From positions 1 to 28,748 of the IMG/VR virus record IMGVR_UViG_3300037258_000163: 28,748 bases of DNA. The stretch is one strand, 5' to 3'. This document shows positions 6,739 to 28,676 of the stretch, piece by piece. A model generated the notes under the pieces. The model did not search any database. It saw nothing but the letters and a program-made list of their open reading frames with translations, and was not told the origin of the DNA. Made by a program: the position numbers and the translations under genes. Numbering within the stretch: the stretch's first letter is position 1; each line of letters starts with the position of its first letter. The stretch is from a virus.

Positions 6739-7092
6739 TCACCAGTTAGGAAGTGAAGGAATAGATGTTCCCTCAAAACCTGAAACCCTGCCGCTGAAAT
6801 CTGTTGTGTGTGCGTCACCAACATGCTCGTCAACGAAAGGATCTATAACATCACTTATAGTTTTTTCTTCTGTGTCATAGCCAAATCTTGGCGGCACAGA
6901 GTTCACTGTCATCTTAGTTCTTATCTCAGCATTTGTGGTAAGCAGATCCTGAGATAGCATAGCCTGAGCTACCTGTCTTTCCTCGAACGTGCCCACATTA
7001 AAGGCACGCTCATACGCCACACGGTCATTTGCGTTTACAAACCACGGGTGTGTGTAATCATACCTTGTATCAGGCAAATCCGGATTAATCAT
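6739..7092 (-). CDS. Hypothetical protein (117 aa)
   Basis: A soluble, mixed-composition protein that starts INPDLPDTRYDYTHPWF and has a helical middle (YERAFNVGTFEERQVAQAMLSQDLL) followed by a Gly/Asp/Pro-rich, probably extended C-terminal half (VPPRFGYDTEEK, VSGFEGTSIPSLPNW). No cysteine or membrane segment. Coupled on both sides (ATGA with the DUF1003-like gene, GTGA with the following gene). The extended C-terminus resembles virion-associated proteins, but this is only an impression. Confidence 0.65.
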   Translation of the reverse strand: MINPDLPDTRYDYTHPWFVNANDRVAYERAFNVGTFEERQVAQAMLSQDLLTTNAEIRTKMTVNSVPPRFGYDTEEKTISDVIDPFVDEHVGDAHTTDFSGRVSGFEGTSIPSLPNW

Positions 7093-7520
7093 TTTCCGCC
7101 AGTTATCTTTGAAAGAACCTCATCTTGCGCCATCAAATGCTTCTGCAATTCTGTTGCTTCATGAAGTATGGCTTCAGCATCATTATATGTCTGCGCCGCT
7201 CTTGCATCAGAAGCCTTTGACTGAATATTCTGCCCGACGATAATAATCGGCAGCAGTACTAGCTGGAGAAATTCTGATGAGCACCACAAGACTAATCCTG
7301 AAGGACCAGCCTTGATAGCAGTAGGCAAGCCGTACACGGCGAGCAATATAAACACGTAAGCACATATCATCGTGCCTACGATAGTTGTAATCCTCAGTCC
7401 AAGCCTGGCATTGAACCGCTGGAACTTGTTATTTTTCTGTATAACGTCTACTGATTTTACTGGTCCTTCAGTTTTCCGCTGCTCATGTCTTGGATGTGGT
7501 ACGTAATTATAAATACTCAT
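7089..7520 (-). CDS. DUF1003-like two-pass membrane protein
   Basis: The 143-residue protein has a polar N-terminus, two membrane segments at about 45-67 (TTIVGTMICAYVFILLAVYG) and 78-95 (GLVLWCSSEFLQLVLLPIIIV), then a cytoplasmic helical tail (ARAAQTYNDAEAILHEATELQKHL). The motif order, RFNARLGLRIT before segment one, SSEFLQLVLLPIIIVGQN after it and a long amphipathic helix at the end, matches DUF1003-type bacterial membrane proteins, whose biochemical role is unknown. ATGA overlaps at both ends. It may modify the host envelope during infection, by analogy only. Confidence 0.6.
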   Translation of the reverse strand: MSIYNYVPHPRHEQRKTEGPVKSVDVIQKNNKFQRFNARLGLRITTIVGTMICAYVFILLAVYGLPTAIKAGPSGLVLWCSSEFLQLVLLPIIIVGQNIQSKASDARAAQTYNDAEAILHEATELQKHLMAQDEVLSKITGGK

Positions 7521-14235: not shown

Positions 14236-14690
14236 TATTTATCACTCCTTCTAGTTATCTCCCTGCTGACGATAAACCTGGCTCGCTCCATTCTGTTGTA
14301 AATAGTTTCAGTCATCTTTCTGTAAGCATATGCCTGGTGAGCTTTATCTCTCTGTTCCAGGAAATCATCATTCGTGAAAGCCATAGCTTTCATTGTTGTT
14401 ACTTTATCTTCCCCCTTGTGCTGAATCTGCTCCAGTGCGTGCATTTCCTCTAGCTGCTGTTTCTCAAACTCTTCATCTACCTGAGCGGCATAAAGCTGTG
14501 TCTCTATATAGTCCAGCCAGCAATTTATCTCACCGAATAATACCATCAGTTCTTCCGCTGATTCAGCCGTTATATCTGCTGGTACCAGCGGCATGCTGTT
14601 CTCTGGTCTTTCAGGTAACTTCAGATCCTGAACATTCAGCTTCCTCACTGCTCTGATAGATGACTCTCCTAGTCTGTAATTAAGACTCAC
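14235..14690 (-). CDS. Conserved helical phage protein of unknown function (151 aa)
   Basis: The product is nearly all helical: an N-terminal arm followed by ESAEELMVLFGEINCWLDYIETQLYAAQVDEEFEKQQLEEM (about 43-84) and a C-terminal helix (AYRKMTETIYNRMERARFIVSREITRR). The EINCWLDYIETQLYAAQ segment resembles a family common beside Cas4-like and recombination genes in actinophages, whose role I do not know. No catalytic residues obvious. Possibly an accessory to the nuclease two genes upstream. Overlaps the preceding gene's end by 11 bases. Confidence 0.65.
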   Translation of the reverse strand: MSLNYRLGESSIRAVRKLNVQDLKLPERPENSMPLVPADITAESAEELMVLFGEINCWLDYIETQLYAAQVDEEFEKQQLEEMHALEQIQHKGEDKVTTMKAMAFTNDDFLEQRDKAHQAYAYRKMTETIYNRMERARFIVSREITRRSDK

Positions 14691-14901
14691 TTGCTACTTC
14701 CGTTTCTGGTTCCCTCGTTTCTGAAGGATACAAAATTCTGCTGTTCCCGCATCCAATGCATCCTGGCGTTCCCTTAAATTGGCAATCCCAGCAAATACTG
14801 ACAGCCATTTGCTCGATATCAGAGAAAGTTCTCTGACAGCAAATACACCTGTAAGGTTGTTCCGCAGTACCCTTAGCTGGCCCGCACATAAGCACAGTCA
14901 T
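14680..14901 (-). CDS. Zinc-finger protein with multiple CxxC (73 aa)
   Basis: The product carries YRCICCQRTF (17-26), SICWDCQFKG (35-44) and GCIGCGNSRI (47-56), three CxxC-type pairs spaced for at least one, perhaps two, zinc sites. It has an acidic C-terminus. Strong ribosome site GAGGAGGCAAA before ATG and ATGA overlap with the upstream gene. Probably a protein- or DNA-binding zinc module. No family name. Confidence 0.7.
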   Translation of the reverse strand: MTVLMCGPAKGTAEQPYRCICCQRTFSDIEQMAVSICWDCQFKGTPGCIGCGNSRILYPSETREPETEVASES

Positions 14902-15069: not shown

Positions 15070-16062
15070 TTACTCCTCCTTCTCATAAGCGGCACAAGTG
15101 GCGCAACCCTCCTTAGGGCAGACAGGCGGGATGCCCACACTGAGAGCATACTCGATCCGGGACGCGCTGTCAAGTAGCGGGGCCAGGATGGCGTCAGAGC
15201 GTGATATTGTGAATTCCTTGATCTGCTGGTTCGCCTTGAATTCGTAGATGAATACTATCTTGTCGAATGGCAGATCCATTTCATCACACATATACAGGTA
15301 AATGTTGCCCTGCTTAACATGCGAAATTAATGGCCTGTGTATGTCATGCCACAATCCTTCAATATCTGTGACCTTCTTGCCCTTAACGTCATATGTATGA
15401 TCTTTCAGCATCTTAGGTGCTTCGAAGCGGAACGTTCCCAGTCCCATCGACTTAATCTCTATGAGGCAGTTCTTTGATAATAAGGCTCCATCTGCATGCC
15501 CGGAAATTCTGTGAGCCTTGGACTTGAGTGTTACTTCCTTGTATTCCCAGTCATGATAATGAGGGCCAATAGAAGAATCATACAGAGCAGGCTCCATGTA
15601 TCCTGCTGATGGCATAAGAATATTGTTTACTCTGACATCACAATCTTTGCAATACCAGTCCCCCCATAGATCTCCTGTCTCTGCTAGCCATCCCTGCCAT
15701 TTCTCATGGATTCTGTTTCCTTCAGAAAACACGTTATCAAGGCTGAATGAAAAGTTTGAACTGGCCGGTTCTGGCAGTCCTGACATTCTGTAATATGTTG
15801 CTCTAGGGCACCAGTCGCTTCTAGCCATTTCTGAAGGAAAGATATTGTTTGACCGTCTCGCTGTTCGTTCTCTGTTTGCGTCATGTTTCTTTAAAAGCAC
15901 TTTCTTTACTTCAGGAAGGACCAGGGATGCAGATGACTTCAGTTCAGCGATTTTGGCTATCTTACCGTCCTCTTTTGTTATACGTCTTCTTCCTCCATCT
16001 CCTTTAGAAGCTCGTTTTTGTCCAGCCCCTTCAATGCGCTTTCTTCCGTTTCCCACTGCCAC
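15070..16062 (-). CDS. Cas4/RecB-like PD-(D/E)XK exonuclease
   Basis: The protein has the hallmarks of phage Cas4-type exonucleases: FPSEMARSDWCPRATYYRMSG (75-95, with the first cluster Cys85), RIHEKW (His119), SGHADGAL (187-194, Asp191), CLIEIKSMG (199-207, Glu202 and Lys204), HVKQGNIYLY (248-257, Gln251) and a C-terminal CPKEGCATC (315-323), the other cysteines of a likely 4Fe-4S cluster. An extra CKDC pair (138-141) sits in the middle. It would resect DNA ends for recombination with RecA and is the usual companion of phage recombination modules. The start is uncertain: GTG 16062 gives 330 residues but overlaps the WhiB gene by 85 bases; no better start is obvious, and the N-terminal basic stretch may be extra. 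Confidence 0.85.
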   Translation of the reverse strand: MAVGNGRKRIEGAGQKRASKGDGGRRRITKEDGKIAKIAELKSSASLVLPEVKKVLLKKHDANRERTARRSNNIFPSEMARSDWCPRATYYRMSGLPEPASSNFSFSLDNVFSEGNRIHEKWQGWLAETGDLWGDWYCKDCDVRVNNILMPSAGYMEPALYDSSIGPHYHDWEYKEVTLKSKAHRISGHADGALLSKNCLIEIKSMGLGTFRFEAPKMLKDHTYDVKGKKVTDIEGLWHDIHRPLISHVKQGNIYLYMCDEMDLPFDKIVFIYEFKANQQIKEFTISRSDAILAPLLDSASRIEYALSVGIPPVCPKEGCATCAAYEKEE

Positions 16063-16361
16063 TCTGGTCTTTCCTGCTTCCTGTTTTCTAAGGGATGCTT
16101 TTTCCGTATGGCTTTCCGGCCAACTTCACTCATCCCTCCCCATATACCATACCGTTCATTGTTAAGAAGTGCAAACATCAGGCATTCATGTCTTATCGGG
16201 CAGATTACACCGTCTGATTCTCCATTGCAGAAATCTATTGCTTCCGCTGACTCTTCCGGATCTTCGCTGAAGAAAGGATCATCATCAGAATGAATCACAC
16301 TTCCGGCGCATTTAGCCTCATCCCACAATCCTGGTGCCTGACTTCTTAACCTTAATACCAT
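15978..16361 (-). CDS. WhiB-family iron-sulfur transcription regulator
   Basis: The 127-residue protein has all four WhiB cysteines: AKCAG (Cys18), DFCNG (Cys45), CPIRHEC (Cys54 and Cys60), followed by YGIWGGMSE (71-79), the invariant GxWGG turn, and a basic RKAIRKK. WhiB proteins bind a 4Fe-4S cluster and work with the principal sigma factor; phage copies are known to modulate host promoters or superinfection. The C-terminal 35 residues are acidic (LLKEMEEEDV). Start ATG 16361 uses the preceding TGA (TGATG). Placed in the replication/recombination unit, it could control the shift in gene expression during infection. High confidence in family; target unknown. Confidence 0.93.
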   Translation of the reverse strand: MVLRLRSQAPGLWDEAKCAGSVIHSDDDPFFSEDPEESAEAIDFCNGESDGVICPIRHECLMFALLNNERYGIWGGMSEVGRKAIRKKHPLENRKQERPEWQWETEESALKGLDKNELLKEMEEEDV

Positions 16362-16669
16362 CAATCTCTTTCCGTGAATTCCATGAAGTCATCAAAGGGC
16401 AGAATTGCATATCTCCTGCCGTCCAAATCGAACACCAGAACTGGGTTTCTGCCCTCTAAAAGAGCCTCTGTCTCTATCTTCCGAAGCTCAGAGGACTTTA
16501 TCGTGTAGCTCAGCTTCCCTGTGGTCTTGCATTCAACAAGGTAACATTCTGTTCTTACATCACCTTTATTAAACCACCGAGAACCTGAGCCTACAGTCAA
16601 TTGCCCTCCGAGCCTTTTTGCTACCGACTTTTCCTGCTTTCGGCTAGACTTAAATGAACTTTCTGTCAT
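16361..16669 (-). CDS. PD-(D/E)XK nuclease, Holliday-resolvase-like
   Basis: The 102-residue protein has QEKSVAKRLGG (12-22, Glu13), VGSGSRWFNKGDVRTEC (26-42, Asp37) and YLVECKTTGK (43-52, Glu46-x-Lys48), then a helix and a final strand (PVLVFDLDGRRYAILPFDDF). This E-GD-ExK order is typical of small endonucleases of the Holliday-junction-resolvase/VRR type that use two metal ions. With RecA, Cas4-like nuclease, polymerase and helicases nearby it likely processes recombination or replication intermediates. Overlaps MazG by 20 bases and the WhiB start by TGATG. Confidence 0.75.
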   Translation of the reverse strand: MTESSFKSSRKQEKSVAKRLGGQLTVGSGSRWFNKGDVRTECYLVECKTTGKLSYTIKSSELRKIETEALLEGRNPVLVFDLDGRRYAILPFDDFMEFTERD

Positions 16670-24937: not shown

Positions 24938-25135
24938 CTACTTTAGATTTTCCGCTCTCATAGCCATCCTGGAGGCAAACCACGACAAAACAACAAATAG
25001 GTCAATGAATCCCACTACAGGCCACGTATAATTCCCAAGCTTGGTCCCACCAAATATCTCAGCTAATCCTAAACTTAGCGTAGGAAATAGCAGTAACATC
25101 AGAAAAACTATCAGACTAGCTTTGTTTATTCTCAC
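24938..25135 (-). CDS. Small two-pass membrane protein (65 aa)
   Basis: Two hydrophobic segments, at about 7-25 (SLIVFLMLLLFPTLSLGLA) and 38-56 (WPVVGFIDLFVVLSWFAS), with a short loop holding FGGTKLGNYT and a charged tail (RMAMRAENLK). GTG start; 20-base overlap with the previous gene. It is the third consecutive membrane protein between primase and SNF2 helicase. Function unknown; a membrane anchor for replication proteins is one possibility. Confidence 0.65.
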   Translation of the reverse strand: MRINKASLIVFLMLLLFPTLSLGLAEIFGGTKLGNYTWPVVGFIDLFVVLSWFASRMAMRAENLK

Positions 25136-25451
25136 GTTTTATGTCCTCGATGTCTTTCTTTACTTTAAGCCTGTGAAGTAATCTCCTTGAATGCTCTATC
25201 CTGTCTTCCCATCGCTCCTTCGGGCTCTGTGTTCCCGTAGTTATGTGTATGGAGAGAGCACTTCTCCTGATTCTTTTAGTGCGAAACCACTCTATAGTTC
25301 CGCTGCACACTGCCACGGTCACAAGTGGGGCCACTACAGTCGCAACCGTATTTTTTAGGAACCAAAACACGACCCCTACGACAACGCCTATAAGTACTGC
25401 TACTGCGTTGGCGATTATTACTCGTGCTCTCTTGAAGTCTGCATTACTCAT
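25116..25451 (-). CDS. Membrane protein with basic helical cytoplasmic tail (111 aa)
   Basis: After a short basic N-terminus (ADFKRARV), two hydrophobic segments at about 11-32 (IIANAVAVLIGVVVGVVFWFL) and 35-54 (TVATVVAPLVTVAVCSGTI), then a long charged helix (RRSALSIHITT; WEDRIEHSRRLLHRLKVKKDIEDIKREN). The tail would lie in the cytoplasm. A perfect AAGGAGG ribosome site precedes ATG. No known family. It neighbours another membrane protein on each side, so possibly subunits of one assembly. Confidence 0.65.
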   Translation of the reverse strand: MSNADFKRARVIIANAVAVLIGVVVGVVFWFLKNTVATVVAPLVTVAVCSGTIEWFRTKRIRRSALSIHITTGTQSPKERWEDRIEHSRRLLHRLKVKKDIEDIKRENKQS

Positions 25452-25460
25452 TTTTCCTCC

Positions 25461-26048
25461 TTAAGTTGTTGGCAAAACTGATGGTGACGGTGATATGGTT
25501 ACTGTGGGTGACGGAGAAGGGCTAGGAGAAGGTGAGGGACTTGGCGAAGGAGTCACAGATTTCACCGGAGTTGGTGAATATGAAGGACTTGGAGAATAAT
25601 ATGGTGAATACGCTGGTGAAGGTGTAACAGTTTTCGTTACTGCCGGAGAAGGAGTTTTAACAATATCACTTACCGGTTTTCCTGCTATTGCGTCAATTAC
25701 AGCAATTGTTCCTCCTGATATCACCGCTACCACTGCAACAGCTATAATAATCTTCCTCCAAGGGATACTTCTCTTGTACTGGCGGTATACCCAGTCATAT
25801 TCCCCGTTTGCTTTCCTTACCCTGACTCTTTTGATCACACTTTTGCGCAATTTATAAAAACCGTGCTCATAAAGAGCGGCAAAAGTTCCGCTGGCTGCAC
25901 TGGCAAGAGCTATACCTACAACGGTGCCTGTTGTGCCCAGGAAACTTCCCAGAAATGCTGCGGTAACGGTTGCAAGAGCAGATGCTGTTATTGTCCAGGT
26001 TCTCTCCCTGAAACCTGGTGGCTTATCTTTGTCTTCTTCTACTGCCAT
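25461..26048 (-). CDS. Membrane protein with long Pro/Ser repeat tail (195 aa)
   Basis: The first 120 residues contain hydrophobic segments at about 20-40 (ITASALATVTAAFLGSFLG), 42-60 (TGTVVGIALASAASGTFAA) and 100-124 (IIIAVAVVAVISGGTIAVIDAIAG), with a basic loop between (KLRKSVIKRVRVRK). From about 130 to the end it is a Pro/Ser/Thr repeat (SPSYSPTPVKSVTPSPSPSPS...), which would be flexible, extended and probably outside the membrane, able to cross the actinobacterial wall. The repeat DNA (25464-25658) shows GGTGA(A/C)GG-like units and may vary in length between relatives. Overlaps the primase stop by ten bases. Unknown function; surface-exclusion or envelope role is a guess. Confidence 0.6.
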   Translation of the reverse strand: MAVEEDKDKPPGFRERTWTITASALATVTAAFLGSFLGTTGTVVGIALASAASGTFAALYEHGFYKLRKSVIKRVRVRKANGEYDWVYRQYKRSIPWRKIIIAVAVVAVISGGTIAVIDAIAGKPVSDIVKTPSPAVTKTVTPSPAYSPYYSPSPSYSPTPVKSVTPSPSPSPSPSPSPSPTVTISPSPSVLPTT

Positions 26049-26938
26049 TTCATCATATAAGCAGGAATCGCTCCTGCTATTCCCCCCTCAATCTCCTCAT
26101 CTGTCATATCCCCGAAATCTTTGGCTTTCTCATTTACTGCCCAGTCGAAAACATATACTGGAATGCGTTTAAATTCTGTGCATATTCTAGCTGTTTCTCC
26201 CACTCCTGCGCTATCATTATCAAGCGCCAGTACAAGGCGGTCTGATCTATCGTGTACAAGGGACAACTGCCTGTCGCTGACGTGTACGCCATATGAAGAA
26301 AGTCCAGTTCTTCCGGTGGAAGTGAAGCAGCGCACTGCATCAACTGGGGACTCGACAAGGATAACGGTGCTGTCATGTTCAGCAATTCGTATGCCAAAGA
26401 GCGTTTCGGACTTTCTGCAACCGCCTGGATAATTTCTGAATTTTCGCTCATTTTTCTCTTGCCATCCCCATAATCTAGAGCTTTCCGGATCTCTGACAGG
26501 GAAAATCCAGGTTCCCCACTCACACTTATCCGGATTCCATAATACTTCATATTTCTCTGCACCTTCTGCCGTGATTTTCCTGCTTTTCAGCGCACTGGGC
26601 GGCGGCGGGGTGAACAGAGCTAAATCTGCATCAGTGAGCCTGAGTTCTTCGGAAGGAGCTACCTTCTCAGGTTCCAACCACTGCTTAGCCCTGCTCAGTC
26701 CCGCACGACCGCGAATCCATGAAGTTGCTTCCGGATGAGATAAGCCTAGCACAACCATAACTAAGCTGTCAAGAGCCCCGCCAAATCCACATGAAAAACA
26801 GTGATGCAGGCCACTGTCCAGATTTACCGACCAAGAGGGATGATGGTCGTTATGGACCGGGCACTGTGCTACAGCTTCATCACCACTGGTGTAGTAATCA
26901 ATTTTCATCTCGTCTAAAAGTGCGGAAATTGTGCTCAT
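26039..26938 (-). CDS. DNA primase (CHC2 zinc finger and TOPRIM)
   Basis: The 299-residue protein has an N-terminal CHC2 zinc finger CPVH (26-29) ... HCFSCG (46-51), with Cys26, His29, Cys47, Cys50 as ligands; then a linker, a RNA-polymerase-like part (about 120-185: VLWNPD, WIFPVRD, GWQEKNE) and a TOPRIM core with VILVESPVDAVR (192-203, Glu196) and LVLALDNDSAGVG (235-247, Asp240 and Asp242). It makes RNA primers for lagging-strand synthesis with the DnaB-like helicase nearby. Short compared with bacterial DnaG; no helicase-interaction domain visible. ATG has GAGAAGGAAAA in front; overlaps a membrane gene at its start. Confidence 0.92.
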   Translation of the reverse strand: MSTISALLDEMKIDYYTSGDEAVAQCPVHNDHHPSWSVNLDSGLHHCFSCGFGGALDSLVMVVLGLSHPEATSWIRGRAGLSRAKQWLEPEKVAPSEELRLTDADLALFTPPPPSALKSRKITAEGAEKYEVLWNPDKCEWGTWIFPVRDPESSRLWGWQEKNERKFRNYPGGCRKSETLFGIRIAEHDSTVILVESPVDAVRCFTSTGRTGLSSYGVHVSDRQLSLVHDRSDRLVLALDNDSAGVGETARICTEFKRIPVYVFDWAVNEKAKDFGDMTDEEIEGGIAGAIPAYMMKWQ

Positions 26939-27035
26939 TTTTCCTTCTCAATCTGCTTTTTACATACTGAGTTCCAAGATAGCCCAAGGAACCTCCAATG
27001 CATGTACCTAAAGCTACCCATGCTCCTGTGTTCAT
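26898..27035 (-). CDS. Small membrane protein with glycine-zipper segment (45 aa)
   Basis: ATG preceded by GAGGAGAAGAAC. The product has a single segment at about 5-24 (AWVALGTCIGGSLGYLGTQY) with Gly/Ser on one face (GxxxG spacing), followed by a basic tail (VKSRLRRKNEHNFRTFRR). GxxxG helices favour tight packing in the membrane. The gene overlaps the first 41 bases of the primase and, in a different frame, a competing 66-codon ORF (26935-27135). I prefer it because of its clean membrane-protein design and ribosome site. Confidence 0.6.
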   Translation of the reverse strand: MNTGAWVALGTCIGGSLGYLGTQYVKSRLRRKNEHNFRTFRRDEN

Positions 27036-27135
27036 GTTCTTCTCCTCTCACGGCCCTGAGACGGCCTGTAACGTCATCACCTGCCTTACCCTGGTCCTGG
27101 TATAGACTGAGGCGAGTTTGCCCGTCAGCGGGCAT
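26935..27135 (-). CDS. Alternative 66-codon frame before primase (uncertain)
   Basis: This frame, from ATG 27135 to TGA overlapping the primase ATG (ATGA), encodes a charged product (DQGKAGDDVTGRLRAVRGEEHEHR... KKQIEKEK) with no domain. The junction is typical for a real gene, but its ATG lies in the stem of a GC-rich hairpin (27119-27134), there is no ribosome site, and the small membrane protein frame occupies the same DNA. Probably not translated, or translated weakly. Confidence 0.25.
   Translation of the reverse strand: MPADGQTRLSLYQDQGKAGDDVTGRLRAVRGEEHEHRSMGSFRYMHWRFLGLSWNSVCKKQIEKEK
27119..27134 (-). terminator. Candidate hairpin terminator after the cysteine-rich pair
   Basis: TGCCCG-CTGA-CGGGCA on the minus strand is a perfect six-pair GC-rich stem with a four-base loop, eight bases after the stop of the second cysteine-rich gene. 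There is no T-run behind it, so as a factor-independent terminator it would be of the incomplete type seen in high-GC bacteria; it may equally be a processing or pause hairpin. It precedes the region with no certain gene until 27035. Confidence 0.45.
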
Positions 27136-27142
27136 CTCAGAG

Positions 27143-27274
27143 CTATTTAGGGGGTGTTCCGATTGGATCGCAGTCGCAGGCTATGCAGTTGCACCTGTGG
27201 TTCCAGTCACAGTGGCAGAAGCGTGTTCCTGATACGCAGCACACACCTCTCTGATCTTTCGGTGAGTCACTCAA
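27143..27274 (-). CDS. Cysteine-rich micro-protein B (43 aa), metallothionein-like
   Basis: TTG start overlapping the previous gene's TGA (TTGA), with AAGGAG six bases upstream. The 43-residue product has eight Cys: GVCCVSG (10-16), FCHCDWNHRC (19-28), CNCIACDC (28-35). The CNCxxCxC box also occurs in the upstream neighbour (CNCLNCEC), so they look like a duplicated pair. Dense CxC and CxxC spacing with His suggests metal binding, or else disulfides if exported, but no signal peptide is present. I know no named family; it resembles metallothionein only in style. Confidence 0.7.
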   Translation of the reverse strand: MSDSPKDQRGVCCVSGTRFCHCDWNHRCNCIACDCDPIGTPPK

Positions 27275-27426
27275 ATTATTCTCCTTATCCAGTTAATCGG
27301 GTTTTTTCTTACCTGCCCGGCAATTATGCTCAGATTACATTCGCAATTTAAGCAGTTACATGAGCATAATGGCGGGCATATGCATGGAATGAACGGAATC
27401 TTCAGGCATGCAGGACATCTTGCCAT
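27271..27426 (-). CDS. Cysteine-rich micro-protein A (51 aa), metallothionein-like
   Basis: ATG with an ideal AGGAGG four bases upstream. The 51-residue product carries nine Cys, mostly in residues 4-30: RCPACLK, PCICPPLCSCNCLNCEC, then a basic tail with NPINWIRR that may be an amphipathic helix. CxC and CxxC steps dominate, as in zinc- or copper-binding small proteins. Translation runs on into its TTG-started partner. Lies between helicase and primase in the replication module. Function unknown. Confidence 0.72.
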   Translation of the reverse strand: MARCPACLKIPFIPCICPPLCSCNCLNCECNLSIIAGQVRKNPINWIRRII

Positions 27427-27434
27427 ATATCCTC

Positions 27435-28676
27435 CTATTCGTCATAAACATCAAATTTCATTTCATCCCAGTCTATCTTAAAAATAAGATTCTCAAATTG
27501 GTCATACCTTGACAGAACGCAGGAAAGAGTGTGCTCAAGCGAGTCTTTATCCTTGTCTAAACCTATGACAAGATCAGAAGCCTTTAATAATCCTGTGCCT
27601 CCCATGATTGTTCTTGACTCTATCCCGCTTTTCGCGTGATACTGTTTCTCCTGCACCTGAGTTGCTACTATTACCGCTGTACCAGTTTCCAGTGCAAGAG
27701 ATTTTAATCCGGCAGCAACGCTTTCATTAGCCTGCCAGTCATCAGTCATCTTGTTTGTTCTCTTGTCCAGCATGAAATTAAACCCGTCAACGTAGACAGC
27801 ATGAGGTGAGTAAAGATCTATCTCAGCCGCGACATCTTCCAGGGTAATCAGAGACTTTTTCCTGGAAATCCTGAATTTCACTGATTCCTCAAGCTGAAGT
27901 TTCTCCGCCGAAGCCCGCACCTTTTCCCTATCTGAATCTCTCAGCACTCTTCTTCGGAGTCTTGATGGCGAAACATGTGCGTCCAGGCAGTAAATGCGCT
28001 CCCTGAGCATCTCTGTATCCATTTCAACGGAAAAGAACAGCACATCATACCCTAATTCCCATGCCTTGAGCGCAGAATTGAGTGATACTGTCGTCTTTCC
28101 TGCCTTCTGGCGGCCTAAGATGGTAATTAGCTGACCTGGCTGAAATCCGAAGAACTTGTTATCGATGTAAGTAAATCCAAGGGGAATACCTCGCTCAACC
28201 TTGAGATCCAGGAAATATTCCACATCGAAGGAAGGATCTCCCAGGTCGTCAGCCATGGAAGATGAGCCGAACGCTGACCTGATCTTAGCTACCTCGGAAG
28301 ACAGGAGATCAATTGCCTCATCCACACTGCCACTGTCATGAAGGCTGATCATCTTACCTATGGCCTCTGACAGCAGGAAACTTTTTATTTTTTCTTCCGC
28401 CAGGGCTTGACAAGCTTCCAGGCTGTCGCTATACTTGTCTTTTAGAGGGTATACTTCTTCAGGATACTGTCTCCTGAAGAGATCTAAAGATGGTACAGAC
28501 TGATGCTGACTATGATATTTCAGCAGCCAAGAATAAACTTCCTTATCAATACCACTGAATATAACATCACTACCTGAAGTATTTAACCATGCTGCTGTAA
28601 ATCCCTTGTTAATAAGATACTTAATATCATCACCGTTAACAATAATCTTACCAATCAGCAAATTACCTAAGTTCAC
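27435..28676 (-). CDS. DnaB-like replicative helicase
   Basis: The 413-residue protein is a RecA-type hexameric helicase: an N-terminal helical domain (1-135), a linker GIPLGFTYIDNKFFGFQPGQLITILG (163-188), Walker A GRQKAGKT (188-195), FFSVEMD (214-220, motif H1a with Glu218), Walker B HAVYVDGFNFM (292-302, Asp297) and the C-terminal TAVIVATQVQE (333-343, sensor-like Gln), a DnaB hallmark. It drives fork unwinding with primase four genes downstream. GTG start overlaps the preceding stop (GTGA) and has AAGGAAAATAA upstream. Short N-terminal domain compared with bacterial DnaB (about 460 residues), as usual for phage. Confidence 0.9.
   Translation of the reverse strand: MNLGNLLIGKIIVNGDDIKYLINKGFTAAWLNTSGSDVIFSGIDKEVYSWLLKYHSQHQSVPSLDLFRRQYPEEVYPLKDKYSDSLEACQALAEEKIKSFLLSEAIGKMISLHDSGSVDEAIDLLSSEVAKIRSAFGSSSMADDLGDPSFDVEYFLDLKVERGIPLGFTYIDNKFFGFQPGQLITILGRQKAGKTTVSLNSALKAWELGYDVLFFSVEMDTEMLRERIYCLDAHVSPSRLRRRVLRDSDREKVRASAEKLQLEESVKFRISRKKSLITLEDVAAEIDLYSPHAVYVDGFNFMLDKRTNKMTDDWQANESVAAGLKSLALETGTAVIVATQVQEKQYHAKSGIESRTIMGGTGLLKASDLVIGLDKDKDSLEHTLSCVLSRYDQFENLIFKIDWDEMKFDVYDE

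Follow-up and report, generated by a model that had tools for sequence, protein, structure and literature searches.

We identified two adjoining genes for cysteine-rich microproteins, here called A and B, between the replicative helicase and primase genes of a phage, and the arrangement of their cysteines suggests that the products bind metal. We are highly confident that A and B are real genes. Their Cys content and CxC/CxxC arrangement make metal binding plausible; each chain would probably take up several metal ions, and a metallothionein-like main role in metal buffering or chaperoning strikes us as close to an even call. The window, by which we mean the whole stretch of DNA analysed (28,748 nt), is a 28.7-kb IMG/VR virus record whose genes lie on the minus strand; it seems to be a fragment of a larger phage genome. 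The features that matter here are:

27435-28676, minus strand: DnaB-type (DnaB-like) replicative helicase, upstream flank of A (Pfam and PHROGs; phrog_19, E 2.8e-44)
27431-27436, minus strand: Shine-Dalgarno (SD) sequence of A, AGGAGG, read from the sequence, with a 4-nt spacer; overlaps the helicase stop codon
27271-27426, minus strand: gene A, Cys-rich microprotein of 51 aa with 9 Cys (17.6%) and an ATG start, MARCPACLKIPFIPCICPPLCSCNCLNCECNLSIIAGQVRKNPINWIRRII
27337-27408, minus strand: seven-Cys array of A, C-x7-CIC-x5-CNCLNCEC (pattern and ungapped register)
27317-27376, minus strand: inverted repeat within A, 16-nt arms (27317-27332 and 27361-27376) with 14 of 16 positions paired, z -3.74
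27281-27286, minus strand: SD sequence of B, AAGGAG, read from the sequence, with a 6-nt spacer; lies within the 3'-terminal part of A
27143-27274, minus strand: gene B, Cys-rich microprotein of 43 aa with 8 Cys (18.6%) and a TTG start, MSDSPKDQRGVCCVSGTRFCHCDWNHRCNCIACDCDPIGTPPK
27170-27241, minus strand: seven-Cys array of B, C-x7-CHC-x5-CNCIACDC (pattern and ungapped register)
27053-27143, minus strand: gap after B, predicted long stem that folds better than shuffles, z -2.3 to -2.4
26898-27035, minus strand: third small ORF of the putative insertion, 45 aa with one hydrophobic segment, SD AGGAG; overlaps the primase start
26039-26938, minus strand: DNA primase with CHC2 zinc ribbon and Toprim, downstream flank (PF01807, E 8.1e-11)

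Along the minus strand the order is helicase, A, B, a 107-bp stretch, a 45-codon ORF and the primase. The 107-bp stretch 3' of B holds no convincing gene, and the 45-codon ORF weakly resembles a holin (phrog_126, E 0.012). The helicase stop codon ends 9 nt upstream of the first base of gene A, and the TTG start of B overlaps the TGA stop of A by 4 nt, as TTGA, so that the two genes, on one strand between helicase and primase, appear to be translationally coupled. A first-pass annotation of this DNA had described tandem coupled Cys-rich genes of 51 and 43 codons, each with eight or nine Cys, in the helicase-primase gap, and the ORFs, the SD sequences and the TTGA overlap bear that description out. 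The predicted proteins have masses of 5.7 and 4.8 kDa, contain four (A) and three (B) CxC motifs together with CxxC and CC pairs, and have one phenylalanine and one tryptophan each. The sequence of A also has a CPAC knuckle and, at its C terminus, a basic tail. Both proteins end at or shortly after the CNCxxCxC box, with no further Cys beyond it. Cysteine makes up about 18% of A and B, compared with 1.4% of residues in the larger genes of the window. Synonymous codon choice favoured the annotated frame of both genes over the other five tested, by small margins.

Elsewhere in the window, two more lineage-specific proteins with hydrophobic segments lie at 25116-26048, from the primase to the SNF2 helicase, of which one (195 aa) carries a long tail of Ser-Pro repeats. 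Two other small proteins that contain Cys are encoded at 1581-1871 and 14680-14901; one is DnaJ zinc-finger-like (PF00684, E 1.9e-4, below the cut-off) and the other has CxxC pairs.

We compared A and B with what chance produces. Cys-rich ORFs were defined as those of 25-70 aa with at least 8 Cys and at least 15% Cys, and an SD of at least 6 nt was scored. Two ORFs in the window, compared with none in 100 dinucleotide shuffles, combined Cys richness with such an SD. The window also has two Cys-rich ORFs without an SD on the plus strand, and therefore Cys richness alone is no evidence; low-complexity or antisense frames were likewise abundant in Cys-pattern scans of databases. An ungapped alignment of A and B revealed seven Cys in common, spaced C-x7-CxC-x5-CNC-xx-C[ED]C, and the CNCxxCxC box that the first-pass annotation had reported as shared (CNCLNCEC in A and CNCIACDC in B) indeed lies within this register. 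The strict seven-Cys spacing pattern matched twice in the window, at A and B, with 0.00 matches expected from shuffles; because the pattern was derived from A and B, this result expresses rarity and is not an independent match. Seven Cys fell into register in 10 of 200,000 full shuffles of A and B, and in 271 of 200,000 (0.14%) when only the order of the gaps between Cys was permuted. BLASTP of A against B aligned the CNC box alone (E 0.006), with slight identity outside the Cys. We took an ungapped Cys register beyond chance as the mark of a single duplicated family, and A and B have such a register. The pair possibly arose by duplication of one gene; because there is little identity outside the Cys, either an ancient duplication or convergence could account for it.

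The region is also predicted to form RNA structure. The loop of the hairpin predicted at 27317-27376 encodes CNCLNCEC, and this hairpin was the second most stable relative to shuffles among 288 minus-strand windows. We found no intrinsic terminator after B, and an Rfam search, which included the gap after B, matched no family. We give low weight to the room that these predicted hairpins may leave for a regulatory reading.

Searches of A and B against Pfam, PHROG, NCBIfam and PDB matched no family or entry, and profile searches matched no zinc-finger, thioredoxin-like or glutaredoxin-like family. The bacterial metallothionein profile PF02069 matched neither A nor B, nor anything else in the record, at E<=10; as a positive control, the profile matches Synechococcus elongatus among others. 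AlphaFold2 single-sequence models of A and B were of low confidence (pLDDT 51 and 57). Both proteins nevertheless have the broad features of metallothioneins: small size, high Cys content, CxC, CxxC and CC motifs, and few aromatic residues. They resemble bacterial metallothioneins of the SmtA/BmtA type (PF02069) in being small and Cys-rich. SmtA carries a CxCxxCxC run, which is the four-Cys box of CNCLNCEC and CNCIACDC. Unlike the SmtA/BmtA type, which has been reported to have a GATA-type zinc-finger fold (PMC10612145), A and B have no PF02069 match and no Cys downstream of the box. A second likeness is to MymT, the copper metallothionein of Mycobacterium tuberculosis, which is also actinobacterial, small and Cys-rich and is reported to have a motif absent from other bacterial metallothioneins (PMC10612145). 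A and B lack an NCBIfam match, and the likeness to MymT concerns small size, Cys content and the actinobacterial setting.

We searched 84,980 genomes for the CxC-x5-CNC-xx-C[DE]C box and found it in proteins of metal-binding style and in several chance frames. It occurred in the Cys/His-rich tail of an FKBP/SlyD-like protein (L355, PF00254, Bacteroidales MAG), in a Cys-rich, metallothionein-like N-terminal extension of GrpE (L357, PF01025, Clostridia MAG), and in Cys repeats of Pirellulaceae (L350, L358). SlyD is an established metallochaperone (PMC7840056), and the convergent use of Cys-X-Cys among metallothioneins is described as driven by metal complexation (PMC1808422).

Judged by the helicase, the SNF2-type helicase and the DNA polymerase, the nearest sequenced phages were the Streptomyces phages BRock, LuckySocke, Alone3, pSt2308 and GiJojo, at roughly 25-43% identity, and the phage appears to be a distant relative of BRock. 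These relatives and a phage-encoded WhiB-like protein (15978-16364; PF02467, E 2.7e-12) are consistent with a host among the actinobacteria. The helicase and primase genes overlap directly in BRock, LuckySocke and Gordonia phage ChisanaKitsune, and a single hypothetical gene separates them in LilMartin. Eighteen IMG/VR loci found by their primase (L005-L022, not counting the near-identical contig described below, and with some loci being duplicates from one phage) have the helicase, primase and SNF2 helicase genes in this order and carry no ORF resembling A or B in the helicase-primase gap. Neither gene was present in the records of 14 IMG/VR relatives or in four isolate phages whose helicase is related. 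A scan that took SD sequences into account, covering BRock and most of the 18 loci, likewise detected neither, and found only one zinc-ribbon-like protein elsewhere in BRock. The only other copy of A and B that we found is on contig 3300036820_000277, which has 1 difference in 1898 bp (~99.9% identical) and is therefore too close to be informative about selection. Because A and B are absent from the relatives examined, they and the 45-codon ORF seem to form an insertion peculiar to this lineage. The first-pass annotation had looked to related phages for conserved Cys spacing and had named its absence as grounds for rejection. The spacing is not conserved there, and since A and B were found only here and on that one contig, the objection largely applies. 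We regard the absence of A and B from all relatives examined as the main weakness of our reading.

In a tblastn search of 50,697 phage records, neither A nor B gave a match, even at E 10. The low-complexity filter of tblastn can mask Cys-rich sequences such as A and B, and for this reason we used DNA patterns instead. Loose seven-Cys and six-Cys patterns run on viral contigs returned mostly low-complexity or antisense frames among the matches listed. We rejected a locus that looked like B (L110), which is antisense to a 478-aa ORF, and the stretch CYCDGWGCSCNNCGC in a relative (L378), which comes from reading the gene of a Pro/Thr-rich protein in the wrong frame. CxCxxCxC matches in isolate relatives lay mostly within longer ORFs, in other frames.

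In pattern scans, about seven other phage lineages of IMG/VR (L266, L275, L291, L302/L413, L404, L402 and L278) did yield similar CxC-rich microproteins, which are 24-87 aa long and mostly preceded by an SD. The protein MVKCEKCGCDCDCKDNCQCTNCECKKEEK and its variants occurred on over 20 contigs and MTKCICGCGCSDSEQCTCKECDCK on 4, and alignment of a 62-70-aa family (L276, L281, L291, L299) revealed Cys that are kept and linkers that vary. L302 has a tandem CxC-rich pair at 7000-7500, with a probable relative in L413/L428/L431; further loci are L266:4206-4280, L275 and kin, L402, L423, L455 and L458. Like A and B, these are phage genes with CxC arrays and mostly SD-led, and in L302 also tandem; in contrast to A and B, their linkers are acidic or Lys-rich, and there is no visible homology to A and B beyond the Cys. 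None of those tested matched PHROGs or NCBIfam. Within a few kb of them lie genes for the portal (L266, L302, L428), the terminase large subunit (L404) and the head maturation protease (L291), so that several lie near packaging and head genes, whereas A and B lie between helicase and primase. The A/B spacing pattern identified 15 distinct proteins in about 5 families, A and B counted, and a control pattern with swapped gaps identified 7 distinct SD-led phage proteins in about 4 families. Because the swapped-spacing control finds similar proteins, we rejected the exact Cys spacing as the mark of a phage family; what recurs is CxC-rich microproteins as such.

We considered whether A and B could be explained without metal clusters. 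That they are chance ORFs, in a gap that is structured RNA or spacer, seems very improbable to us. The absence of conservation in relatives, the strong predicted hairpin inside A and the occurrence of chance Cys-rich ORFs in phage DNA (as at L378) would fit such an explanation, whereas the SD sequences, the coupling, the matched Cys register, the absence of any SD-led Cys-rich ORF in 100 shuffles and a codon bias that is best in frame argue against it. We hold it just as improbable that they are Cys-codon leader ORFs, whose translation would sense the supply of cysteine and control the downstream primase, the product itself being irrelevant. Mycobacteria have polycysteine leader ORFs, Cys-rich short ORFs in actinobacterial operons as A and B would be, and these are leaderless attenuators according to the title of the paper describing them (Canestrari et al. 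2020, via PMC9094748). An actinobacterial phage, as the nearest relatives and the WhiB gene suggest, with Cys-rich short ORFs upstream of the primase and predicted hairpins in A and after B, would fit a similar device. Against this, the Cys codons of A and B are spaced in CxC rather than clustered in runs as "polycysteine" implies, the Cys register common to A and B is needless for sensing at the codon level, the search for an intrinsic terminator was negative, and there are two SD-led coupled ORFs mid-row, with a primase downstream, rather than one leaderless ORF at the head.

Two further explanations accept the proteins and differ over their thiols. A and B could be redox or thiol proteins, acting in disulfide exchange or as thiol buffers, which we consider improbable. 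They have CxxC and CC pairs, and the phage encodes a WhiB-like protein, from a family of redox-sensitive Fe-S regulators; however, A and B match no thioredoxin- or glutaredoxin-like family, and metal clusters are the more usual setting for CxC arrays. Alternatively, they could be small zinc-finger or zinc-ribbon effectors that use zinc structurally and bind a host or phage protein such as RNA polymerase, primase/helicase or a nuclease. We judge this unlikely, though worth serious attention: A and B sit in the replication module, A has the CPAC knuckle and basic tail, and phage microproteins typically work by binding a partner. The small genes of phages number over 2 million, and those studied often act in the interplay of phage and host (PMC11323111). 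Yet 8-9 Cys within about 25 residues, mostly in CxC, is denser than one finger needs, and no zinc-finger family matched. For the host-targeted redox or zinc protein raised in the first-pass annotation, we found no specific evidence in A or B.

Because of the density and spacing of Cys within 43-51 residues, we favor metal-thiolate binding over a single zinc finger or disulfides. On the metal-thiolate reading, A and B would be co-transcribed with helicase and primase, and the 8-9 thiolates of each chain would hold a few Zn(II) or Cu(I) ions, around which the chain would fold. The proteins might then buffer zinc or copper, or act as chaperones for these metals, while phage DNA is being made in a burst. 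The primase downstream is a zinc protein by family, through its CHC2 zinc ribbon, and its position suggests one example of a role, which is that A and B could keep zinc available for it; protection against metal released in infection may be another. In favor of this reading as a whole we weigh the SD sequences and coupling, the 0 of 100 shuffles, the shared register and the CxC-rich microproteins of other phages, and against it the lack of a homologue beyond two near-identical contigs, the lack of a PF02069 match and a spacing that is not special. Taken together, we conclude that the part of the earlier interpretation that placed coupled metal-type microproteins in the replication row is likely to be right, whereas the role assigned to them is a guess, and they are absent from all relatives examined.

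The wider class of CxC-rich phage microproteins is a more interesting lead than A and B. We propose tentatively, and with more doubt than belief, that unrelated phages repeatedly carry unannotated "phage metallothioneins" that manage zinc or copper, in replication for A and B and in head assembly or packaging for the others. Our literature search, for which most subscription journals were out of reach, found no paper that pairs phages with metallothionein. Should A, B and the other CxC-rich microproteins of phages prove to bind metal clusters, the buffering of metals would be a recurring viral function missed by standard annotation, and one could test directly whether phages manage zinc or copper while replicating DNA or building heads.
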